From contig NZ_JAUSKL010000107.1 in NCBI RefSeq assembly GCF_030646925.1, positions 1 to 64,000 on the forward strand: 64,000 bases of DNA, read 5' to 3'. Of this stretch, positions 35,045-42,568 are shown in pieces. The notes beneath the pieces are model-generated. The model had not been told where the DNA came from. It did not search any database and was given only the letters and a program-made list of their open reading frames with translations. This DNA comes from Candidatus Binatus sp. (lineage in GTDB: Bacteria; Desulfobacterota; Binatia; Binatales; Binataceae). The translations under genes were made by a program, and so were the position numbers. Position 1 is the first letter of the stretch, and the number at the start of each line of letters is the position of its first letter.

Positions 35045-36634
35045 GTGACGGAAACTAAACATCGATCGAGCGAGTCTGGTCGGCCCACCGACTACGCCGA
35101 TGTCGTTGGCGCGGGCGCCGTCGCAAGGAAAACGGCGATGGAACGAAAGGAAGGCGGAATCTACCTCACCCCCGTGTCGGTCGCTGACTTCATTGCCGCA
35201 CAAATCAGCTTCAGTGGAGGCGTCGTCCGCATCCTTGATCCGGCAGCCGGATCAGGGACATTGCTGTGTGCCGCGGTCGAACGATTGGTCTCAACTTGTA
35301 AGTCGTTTCGCGAAGCCGAAATAACAGCTTACGAAACCGATCCGAACCTGCAAGTTGCGCTCACAGACGCCCTCGATAATCTCAGACGCTGGGCGAGTGA
35401 ACGACACGTTCAAATCCGGGTACTCATTGAAAAGAATGATTTCGTTCTCGCCCATTCCGAACTTCTCGGGACCAATCGCCGGTTGTTCCAAACTCCTGCG
35501 ATAAACCCATTCGATTTAGTCATTGCAAATCCGCCGTACTTCAAGCTCTCAAAAGTTCCTGGCCGCCAACAAAATCAGAGCACAGTGATTCGAGATCAAC
35601 CGAACATCTACACGCTTTTTATGGCGGCGGGCGCGGAACTCTTGAAAGACGGCGGCGAGTTGCTGTTTATCGTGCCCAGGAGTTTCGCTTCCGGCCCGTA
35701 CTTCCGGTCTTTCAGAGAGAGTTTCTTCGGGAAAGTTCGGCCCGTTCGAGTTCACATATTTGGGTCCCGGCGCGACGCTTTCGGCCGCGATGCAGTTTTG
35801 CAAGAAAATATCATATTCAAGGGCGTTCGAGATCGGCGATGGCCGCAGAGTAACGAGAGATTCATGCTGTGTGTATCCAGTACCGGAGGTATCTCGGACC
35901 TCGATAAGGTGAGAGAACGCAACTTGCCCCTCGATAGAGCCTTGTCCATGGCTACCAGCAGCAAGGTTCTTAGGCTTCCTCTCCAGCGGAAAGAAGATGA
36001 AGCGGTCGAGTTGGTTGACTCGTGGACGGGCTCTCTTCACGAGTACGGAATGGAAATTTCAACGGGCCCGGTGGTTCCGTTTCGAGCCGCAGAGCTGCTA
36101 GATGACACAGGTTGTCCAGCCAATAGGTACGCTCCACTCATATGGATGCATCATGTGCATGCGATGCGCATTTCTTTTCCAAACGGAACCCGGAAACCTC
36201 AGTTCATAGAGAAAAGGGCTTCTGAGCGGTCGCTGCTGATTCCCAATCGAAACTACGTCTTTTTGCGTCGATTCAGCGCGAAGGAGGAAGCACGCCGACT
36301 CGTGGCGGCCCCATGGCTCAAAGGTTTCGCGGCGTCGCCGCTACTGGGTATCGAAAATCACCTGAACTACATATATCGATTGAGCGGAGAATTGGATGAA
36401 CGCGAAGCCTATGGCCTGGCAGCCCTCTTATGCAGCGAATTGCTCGACACTTACTTCCGCGTTTCAAGTGGCAACACCCAGGTTAGCGCAACTGAGCTAC
36501 GGGCTATGCCTTTACCCCCGCACGAAACCATACTAGCCATCGGCCATCGAGCCAAAGAGTTGAACCGGGTGGGCGACGAACTGGAAGAGATAGTAAGAGA
36601 CGCGATCAATGCCGCCATCGAAAAAGGCCATTAG
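35045..36634 (+). CDS. N6-adenine DNA methyltransferase (gamma class, type II R-M)
   Basis: A 529-residue DNA methyltransferase. Motif X-like GGIYLTPVSVADFI (about residue 37) precedes motif I ILDPAAGSGTLL (about residue 64), which binds SAM, and the catalytic motif IV NPPY (about residue 165), which marks N6-adenine methylation. The C-terminal half is the target-recognition part. The GTG at 35045 gives the longest product; an ATG at 35138 with AGGA eight bases before it is a serious alternative. It overlaps the PstI-like endonuclease gene by 26 bases and should protect the same site. Base composition is lower in GC than the flanking chromosome. Confidence 0.9.
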   Translation: MTETKHRSSESGRPTDYADVVGAGAVARKTAMERKEGGIYLTPVSVADFIAAQISFSGGVVRILDPAAGSGTLLCAAVERLVSTCKSFREAEITAYETDPNLQVALTDALDNLRRWASERHVQIRVLIEKNDFVLAHSELLGTNRRLFQTPAINPFDLVIANPPYFKLSKVPGRQQNQSTVIRDQPNIYTLFMAAGAELLKDGGELLFIVPRSFASGPYFRSFRESFFGKVRPVRVHIFGSRRDAFGRDAVLQENIIFKGVRDRRWPQSNERFMLCVSSTGGISDLDKVRERNLPLDRALSMATSSKVLRLPLQRKEDEAVELVDSWTGSLHEYGMEISTGPVVPFRAAELLDDTGCPANRYAPLIWMHHVHAMRISFPNGTRKPQFIEKRASERSLLIPNRNYVFLRRFSAKEEARRLVAAPWLKGFAASPLLGIENHLNYIYRLSGELDEREAYGLAALLCSELLDTYFRVSSGNTQVSATELRAMPLPPHETILAIGHRAKELNRVGDELEEIVRDAINAAIEKGH

Positions 36635-37562
36635 GATTGCTCAGGCTGGAGCCATCCTTAAAGACTTCGGCCTTCCTGCGGCTCAGCAAAATCAGATTTC
36701 TTCTCTTACCCTTCTTGCGCTGTGCGGTTTAAGAGTAAACGACCCTTGGTCGAGCGCAAGCCGCGAGGCTCGCACAGTTACAAAGGGAATTATGGATTTC
36801 ATTTCGCGGAATTACCGCGTCAGCTATGCTCCGAATACTCGTGAGACTGTGCGGCGTCAGGTTCTCCATCAATTCGTGCTTGCCGGGCTAGCGAACTACA
36901 ATCCGTTCGAGCCCGAGCTTCCAACTAACAGCCCGCGTGCTCACTATGCCGTCTCTGAAATCGCTCTTGAAGCAATCAGGTCCTACGGAGCGGCAGGGCA
37001 CGAGGGATGGATCGCAAGATTTCTTTCCACCCGAACGACTCTTATCGAATTATTCGAACGCCGACGCTCAAAGCGCTTGATTCCAATCACGTTTCCAGAC
37101 GGGATATCAGTTCGACTCTCACCAGGTGCACATAACAAATTGCAGAAAGCGATTGTGGAGCAGTTCGCGCCGCAGTTCGTACAGTCCGCCAAGCTGCTCT
37201 ATCTGGGTGATACAGCGCAAAAGAATCTCTATCACCATGCGGAGACCCTCAACGCCTTGCGCATTCCGGTGACCGAGCATGACAAACTGCCCGACGTGAT
37301 TATTTTTGACGAAGCGCGAAATTGGATATTTCTGGTCGAAGCCGTGACCTCCCATGGACCAATGTCCAACAAACGAGTGCTTGAGCTAGAGGAACTATTC
37401 CGAGCATGCCCGGCAGGTCTAATCTACGTTTCTGCGTTTCCGGATTTGGCCAGCTTCCGCAGACACGTACGAGAGATCGCTTGGGATACCGAAGTATGGA
37501 TTGCCGATCTCCCTGAGCACTTGATCCACTACAACGGCGATCGGTTCTTGGGACCTCGATAA
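36609..37562 (+). CDS. BsuBI/PstI-family type II restriction endonuclease
   Basis: A 317-residue protein matching the BsuBI/PstI family, whose known members cut CTGCAG. The N-terminal half is a helical domain (LTLLALCGLRVNDPW). The catalytic half contains KLLYLGDTAQKN (about residue 197), then LPDVIIFDEARNWIFLVEAVTSHGP (key residues PD, E and the following HGP, about residues 228-252) and KRVLELEELF. The partner methyltransferase overlaps its start. CTGCAG as the recognised site is inference from the family. No control (C) protein gene accompanies the pair. Confidence 0.9.
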   Translation: MPPSKKAIRIAQAGAILKDFGLPAAQQNQISSLTLLALCGLRVNDPWSSASREARTVTKGIMDFISRNYRVSYAPNTRETVRRQVLHQFVLAGLANYNPFEPELPTNSPRAHYAVSEIALEAIRSYGAAGHEGWIARFLSTRTTLIELFERRRSKRLIPITFPDGISVRLSPGAHNKLQKAIVEQFAPQFVQSAKLLYLGDTAQKNLYHHAETLNALRIPVTEHDKLPDVIIFDEARNWIFLVEAVTSHGPMSNKRVLELEELFRACPAGLIYVSAFPDLASFRRHVREIAWDTEVWIADLPEHLIHYNGDRFLGPR

Positions 37563-40374: not shown

Positions 40375-40539
40375 CTAATCTGATTTGTCGCGGGAGCGTT
40401 TTGGCGCCGCGACGTCCCGCAACGCCTCGCCTTCGGACGAGCTGCTCGCCATGTGCTGGGTCATCGCGTCGAGCTCGATGCCCAGCGCGTCCGCGACTCG
40501 ATCGATAAAATTGAACAGGCTCGCGATCGTGACGATCAC
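40375..40539 (-). pseudogene. C-terminal fragment resembling a carboxymuconolactone-decarboxylase-type protein
   Basis: A 54-codon frame reads VIVTIASLFNFIDRVADALG near its start, the typical last helix of AhpD-like or peroxidase-related CMD-domain proteins. No catalytic CxxC or upstream domain is found. It begins over the TGA that ends the selenoprotein gene, one frame away. It may be the remains of an AhpD-like gene that partnered the peroxiredoxin, or a C-terminal extension cut off by a frameshift. Confidence 0.35.
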
Positions 40540-41129
40540 TTACGCGGCACGCGGACACCGCGAAGTATCGCGTTCATCGTCGCGCGGAAAAACATCTCGC
40601 CGGGCCACAAGCCATGCTGCCGCGGTTGCGAGGCGGATTCAGCGCTCCCCTTGCCGAGGCCGCGCACCAGTTCGAGCAATTGATTTATATCGGTGCGCCT
40701 CGCGACCGTTTCCAGCGCGCGAAAGCGAATGACGCGATCGCGATCGCGATCGATCACGAATACCGCTGGATACGCGATTCCACCCATCTCCTTGGTGTTC
40801 AACACTCCATAGGATTTGACGACGGTGCGATCCGGATCGCAGAGCAGCGGAAACTTGAGCGCGAGTTGTTCGCGCAGCGGCGCGGATCGAGCCGCATCGT
40901 CCACGGAGATCGCCGCTACCTCGGCCCCGGCGCTGCGAAATCGATCTGCCTCAGCCGAATAATCCGCCAACTGGCGGAGGCAAAACGGTCACCAATGGCC
41001 GCGGTAAAATATCAGCACGCACGGACCGCCCGACACCAGTTCGGAAAGGGTCCGCGTGGCGCCAGCCGAGTCGGCAATCGAAAAGTCGGGAGCTGCCTGC
41101 CCGACCGCCAGAACTTCTTGCTCGTTCAT
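40536..41129 (-). CDS. peroxiredoxin-like selenoprotein (in-frame UGA as selenocysteine)
   Basis: A 197-residue AhpC/TSA-type thioredoxin-fold protein read from the ATG at 41129 through an in-frame TGA at 40989-40991. Before the TGA it reads APDFSIADSAG and VLIFYRGHW; after it PFCLRQLADYS, AEVAAISVDD, PLLCDPD and YPAVFVIDRD. The TGA replaces the N-terminal residue of a CPFC-type redox motif, giving U-P-F-C (codons 47-50). A hairpin 16 bases downstream fits a bacterial SECIS element. The protein probably reduces peroxides or disulfides in the cytoplasm, with the following Cys resolving the selenenyl intermediate. A gene finder that treats TGA as stop would report only the part from 40970. The alternative, a nonsense mutation of TGC to TGA, cannot be excluded. 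Confidence 0.8.
40964..40982 (-). promoter_or_regulatory. candidate bacterial SECIS hairpin
   Basis: In the mRNA, CCGCC (40973-40977) pairs with GGCGG (40964-40968) around the loop AGUU, with G at the second loop position. A lower stem UGCCUC/GAGGCA can extend it across an asymmetric bulge. The apical loop lies 16 bases after the UGA, at the short end of the distance known for SelB-dependent SECIS elements. Confidence 0.65.
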
Positions 41130-41657: not shown

Positions 41658-42568
41658 TTAGATATACATCGTGCCTTCGCCGGAGATCGCGCATCGTCCG
41701 CCGATTCGAACGCCGATCGTATCGCCGGTGCGCGTCACTTCGACTTCGATCCGGCTGGGGCGGCCCATCTCGATTCCCTGATCGATCGCGAATCGGCATC
41801 GCGGCGCCGCAGGAATCAATCGATGCATCGCGGCCTAGGCGCCGAATGGACCCGCCGCGCCGCCGGTCGCCGGATCCTCGGCGATTCCGACTGTATGCGG
41901 CGCGAACATCCGCGCGCGCACACCAAACTCGCGCGAATCCCCGATTGCGAACATATGCAGCGCGAGTTTCTCTTCGTGCGCATCGAACAACGCCGCCAGC
42001 GCCGGCCCGTTGGGAGCGCATCGCCCGAGCGCCTCGACCGATTTGATCGGCACGAAGAGAAACGGCACGCCGGTCGATACGATCTGGATCGGTAGATCGC
42101 CGCGGATGTCGGCCGGATCGATACCGAGCGCACTCGCGATGCGCGCGCGATCGTCGCGAATCGCGCCGTATGTGGGCTCGCGATGCGTCATCCAGACGAA
42201 TTCAGGCTGGCGATGAACGCCTTCCACCGCGACGCTGATCGGCCCGATTTCGAGCTGCAGTATCGCCACGGTGCTGGGACCTTCGAGCACGATCTCGCCG
42301 CGGCTCGCGAGCACCCACGCCGTGCCGACCGTCGGATGCCCCGCCATCGGCAGCTCGACTCTCGGCGTGAAAATTCTCACTCGGCGAACCGCGGCTGCGA
42401 TTTCGGGCGCGGACACAAAAGTCGATTCGCTGAAATTGAGTTCGTGCGCCAGCGATTGCATCTCGGTTGCGCTCAGCCCGGCGGCGTCGGTGAAAATTGC
42501 GAGCTGGTTTCCGCCGAATCGCTTCGCGGTGAAAACGTCACCAGTATGAATGAGTATCTGCGCGGCAT
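41658..42568 (-). pseudogene. PhzF-family isomerase/epimerase, frameshift plus nonsense codon
   Basis: The PhzF pattern is nearly complete but broken twice. From the ATG at 42568 the frame gives MPRRYSFIL, then one base is missing near 42540 and the following frame reads DVFTAKRFGGNQLAIF and HELNFSES (active-site Glu). The middle part has MAGHPTVGTAWVL and the GIAEDPATGGAAGPFGA strand. A TAG at 41835-41837 interrupts this where Tyr is usual, and the same frame continues AAMHRL through QGIEMGRPSRIEVEV to TAA at 41658-41660. PhzF proteins isomerise small substrates with a DapF-like fold. With two lesions the gene is probably inactive unless both are sequencing errors. Confidence 0.8.

Follow-up and report, generated by a model that had tools for sequence, protein, structure and literature searches.

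Selenoproteins of the peroxiredoxin-like type

Members of the AhpC/TSA family (PF00578) with a UxxC motif have figured in lists of selenoproteins since 2005, and the Sargasso Sea and GOS data yielded Prx-like selenoproteins with UxxC (PMC1088965, PMC2398784). The Prx-like thiol:disulfide oxidoreductases (PF00578, UxxC or UxxU; reference WP_010940744.1, and 'Prx-like 1' of the GOS study) have widespread Cys homologues (PMC13188914, PMC9312934, PMC2398784, PMC1088965). Three further groups are close to them: the Sec-peroxiredoxins, with Thr-x-x-Sec (TxxU) at the peroxidatic position; the cd02970 AhpC/TSA selenoproteins (PF13911), with UxxS; and the SelL-related redox proteins (NF040769).

The gene described here lies on the minus strand of a 64,000-nucleotide stretch of a Candidatus Binatus contig, hereafter the window. 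Judged from its sequence, it almost certainly encodes a single-domain, thioredoxin-fold Prx-like UxxC selenoprotein in which UGA at codon 47 is decoded as Sec by means of SelB and a hairpin. The features discussed below are as follows.

40536..41129, minus strand: putative Prx-like UxxC selenoprotein gene, 197 residues with U47 and C50, stop codon TGA at 40536-40538
40989..40991, minus strand: putative Sec codon 47, an in-frame TGA (TGA in 11 relatives, TGC or TGT in Cys homologues)
40963..40978, minus strand: presumed SECIS hairpin TCCGCC-AGTT-GGCGGA (codons CGC CAG TTG GCG invariant in 8 genes)
40539..40625, minus strand: subfamily-specific C-terminal tail with a conserved PGxMFxRAxxNAxxxGV helix (from the alignment and the model helix)

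Placement among the known classes

PF00578 and UxxC are common to the gene and the Prx-like oxidoreductases; the conserved C-terminal tail sets the gene apart, the comparison with WP_010940744.1 being one of domain and motif only. In a peroxiredoxin alignment, U47 falls at the Thr (Thr/Ser) of the TxxC motif and C50 at the peroxidatic Cys. The Sec is thus three residues before the peroxidatic Cys, which assigns the protein to the thioredoxin-style UxxC Prx-like type and not to the Sec-peroxiredoxins, with which it has the peroxiredoxin fold in common. The first-pass annotation had called the product peroxiredoxin-like, with Sec in the first position of a CxxC-type redox motif. The UxxC motif stood; the description is refined to Prx-like, with Sec at the Thr and C50 in the peroxidatic position.

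Like the cd02970 proteins, the product is peroxiredoxin-like with Sec first in its motif, but it has UxxC where they have UxxS, and PF13911 (AhpC-TSA_2) does not match it. Among NCBIfam models none is passed by the protein; the nearest is the SelL-related NF040769, which matches residues 12-125 at 51.5 bits, below its curated cut-off of 120. The existence of UxxC selenoproteins related to AhpC/TSA, given as background in the first-pass annotation, is borne out by the literature (PMC1088965, PMC2398784). Because such proteins are already known, the gene is an addition to a described class of bacterial selenoproteins.

An AF2 model in which the TGA was read as Cys has a mean pLDDT of 88.4, and its best PDB matches are Bcp4 and other peroxiredoxins, including AhpE. 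The UPFC motif (residues 47-50) sits at the start of helix 48-59, preceded by core strand 37-41, so that UxxC opens the helix that follows this first core strand.

A single frame across the TGA

From ATG 41129 to the TGA at 40536-40538, the translated minus strand is interrupted solely by the TGA at 40989-40991, in the context FYRGHW-U-PFC. Residues 9-129 form an unbroken Pfam match to PF00578 spanning this codon (3.6e-32; 111.4 bits against a curated cut-off of 26). The open frame and the continuous homology described in the first-pass annotation are both there, and all of its coordinates are correct. At 40733-40750 (minus strand) the gene has two additional residues (DR) relative to its relatives, which apparently arose from a local GATCGC repeat.

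As had been predicted for standard gene calling, the mechanical ORF caller lists a protein of 144 residues starting at TTG 40970, which lacks 53 codons and with them the UxxC motif. Such a listing might be taken to indicate two separate products, a peptide of 46 and a protein of 144 residues. This is highly improbable, since the catalytic motif would fall between the two parts, the domain match continues over the TGA without a gap and the full-length ATG start is common to the relatives.

Conservation of the in-frame TGA

Relatives were sought in 58 close, 148 class and 395 phylum genomes, sets that overlap. Eleven relatives (33-69% identity), each with one in-frame TGA, are read as Sec forms: six from the same family (L024-L029), four from elsewhere in the class (L068, L069, L031 and L032) and one from elsewhere in the phylum (L094). 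In all eleven the TGA occupies the identical codon, within FYRG(H/Y/F)WUP(F/Y)C or FFRGHWUPFC, and the closest proteins have both the start and the C-terminal tail in common with the gene. In homologues from Pseudomonadota, Bacillota and Myxococcota this position is occupied by TGC or TGT. The in-frame UGA therefore aligns with a Cys of homologues, as expected had it replaced the first Cys of the redox motif, which the first-pass annotation proposed.

These alignments bear on two trivial explanations. The assembly is a draft of 126 contigs, in which a TGC or TGT might have been misread as TGA; that 11 other, independent genomes have TGA at this codon too refutes such an error, whose probability we consider negligible, and codon 47 is thus not a misread Cys codon. 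It is just as hard to credit that a nonsense mutation has left the remainder of the gene to decay. The neighbouring phzF-like gene does carry a private in-frame stop, a TAG, but in the gene itself the same TGA recurs across the class, the codons 3′ of it are under purifying selection (dN/dS 0.12-0.33), and the tail and the position of the stop are conserved.

One member of the same family, L030, has the Cys form; it retains CLRQLADY, with TTA as its Leu codon. When Sec and Cys forms are placed in one tree they are interspersed, with five changes on the best tree. This was set aside as evidence on their history, as the supported branches still allow a single origin.

The presumed SECIS hairpin

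The bSECIS model calls for a stem of 4-16 bp, a loop of 3-9 nt with G in one of its first two positions, a distance of 16-37 nt from the UGA and an MFE of at most -7.5 (PMC13188914). The first-pass annotation had noted a hairpin, with a G-containing AGUU loop, beginning 11 bases after the TGA, and TCCGCC-AGTT-GGCGGA is found there: it starts at the 11th base past the TGA (10 bases between) and its loop at the 17th. With 6 bp, G at position 2 of the AGTT loop, a loop 16 nt from the UGA and a local MFE of -11.0 kcal/mol, it satisfies the published constraints.

The energy of this single sequence was rejected as proof of a SECIS element. Synonymous-codon shuffles equal it in 3-43% of trials (p 0.03-0.43), and among the TGA trinucleotides of the window at least 5% have a comparable stem after them. 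In the minimum-energy structure of the gene's own 50-base fold these bases pair otherwise, the short hairpin being a local fold only. Since shuffles and background TGAs weaken the hairpin taken by itself, support for a SECIS element rests more on codon conservation.

In the eight closest genes, synonymous identity is 79% at codons +3 to +9 and 50% at the remaining codons. There are 39 degenerate columns with a conserved residue, and the codon is invariant in six; four of these six are the consecutive hairpin codons +5 to +8, CGC CAG TTG GCG, identical in 8 of 8 genes. Six invariant columns placed at random would cover those four with a chance of about 2 in 10,000, by an arithmetic that ignores relatedness. 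Elsewhere in the same genes, TTG accounts for 19 of 136 Leu codons. The TTA of the Cys form L030, a single case, would unpair the innermost base pair.

Compensatory change in the hairpin is almost absent among the relatives. That of L026 has 4 bp and one mismatch, while L032 and L069 have a GGT-loop hairpin instead, which fits the bSECIS model. The core CGCCAGTTGGCG was tried as a class-wide selenoprotein marker and discarded, as each genome contains it several times, on the same order as its reversed control.

The selenocysteine machinery

The draft assembly (126 contigs, 98% complete) encodes SelA, SelB, SelD and a tRNA-Sec (UCA), all four of the components that the first-pass annotation had wished to see sought. 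The match to selA scores 580 bits, that to selD 383 bits and that to selB 365 bits (cut-off 242), the last in two stretches within one 703-aa frame; contig C58 carries the three genes together. The tRNA-Sec, with a TCA anticodon, scores 74.2 bits. Thus selB and tRNA-Sec, on whose presence the earlier reading had been made to depend, are both in the genome.

The selD gene (L019 1531) is itself a selenoprotein gene. Its own active site contains an in-frame TGA (AAGUAGKLG), followed at 17 bases by a GGC-loop hairpin, GGTCC-GGC-GGACC, which fits the bSECIS model.

Of the 10 class relatives with the TGA form, 9 have a tRNA-Sec. None was found in the 88% complete assembly of the other, G034, whose congener G025 has one. 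A tRNA-Sec is also present in most tested members of the family without the selenoprotein gene, so the Sec trait is general to the family.

Genome-wide recoding of UGA, or near-cognate readthrough as Cys or Trp, would likewise allow translation past codon 47 without Sec. We regard this as very improbable: the gene's own stop codon is UGA, at a place where relatives have TAA, TAG or TGA, the TCA-anticodon tRNA scores as tRNA-Sec, selA, selB and selD are present, and the Cys of the homologues is the classical partner of Sec. Given the conserved codon and the complete machinery, Sec decoding is by far the best explanation, and both lend support to the original proposal that the organism decodes UGA as Sec and that this enzyme uses it.

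C-terminal tail and genomic neighbourhood

The tail has no Pfam match. The AF2 model places a helix at residues 176-189 (pLDDT about 70), and PGxMFxRAxxNAxxxGV is conserved in both Sec and Cys forms. A tentative and rather doubtful reading is that of a distinct, Sec-favouring Prx-like subfamily, marked by the FYRGHWUPFCLRQLA block, a conserved C-terminal helix and a SECIS sequence nearly fixed across the class and still recognisable in L094. Within that subfamily reading, the helix might tether the protein to membranes or a partner.

YkuD and DUF882-like genes adjoin the selenoprotein gene in the window and in L024 of the same genus. In L025, also of the genus, a phzF-like gene stands immediately upstream of it, and other genes flank it elsewhere in the family. 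Neighbourhoods compared across genus and family suggested no functional partner.

In the window, the phzF-like gene (PF02567; 41661-42548, minus strand) is interrupted by an in-frame TAG at 41835-41837. Past this codon the homology continues (54% identity to L096), and the frame is open there in seven relatives; the TAG is probably either a sequence error or a nonsense mutation private to this gene. At 35045-37562 (plus strand), genes for an Eco57I-type N6 methylase and, after it, a BsuBI/PstI-type restriction endonuclease appear to form a restriction-modification pair.

Proposed mechanism and significance

During translation, SelB carrying Sec-tRNA-Sec would bind the hairpin just 3′ of UGA47, and the complex would insert Sec at this codon. 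UGA198, followed by no such hairpin, would terminate translation. Sec47 may then act as the nucleophile, a Sec47-Cys50 selenenylsulfide being formed and exchanged in a cycle that would reduce either a peroxide or a disulfide. Such a cycle, with a peroxide or a protein disulfide as substrate, is the natural reading.

Ordinary gene callers would split this gene into two, and table-11 ORF calling strips the active site from it and from all Sec-containing relatives. Read through its UGA, the gene would provide a bacterial lineage, seen here as draft genomes, with a further redox enzyme that depends on selenium.
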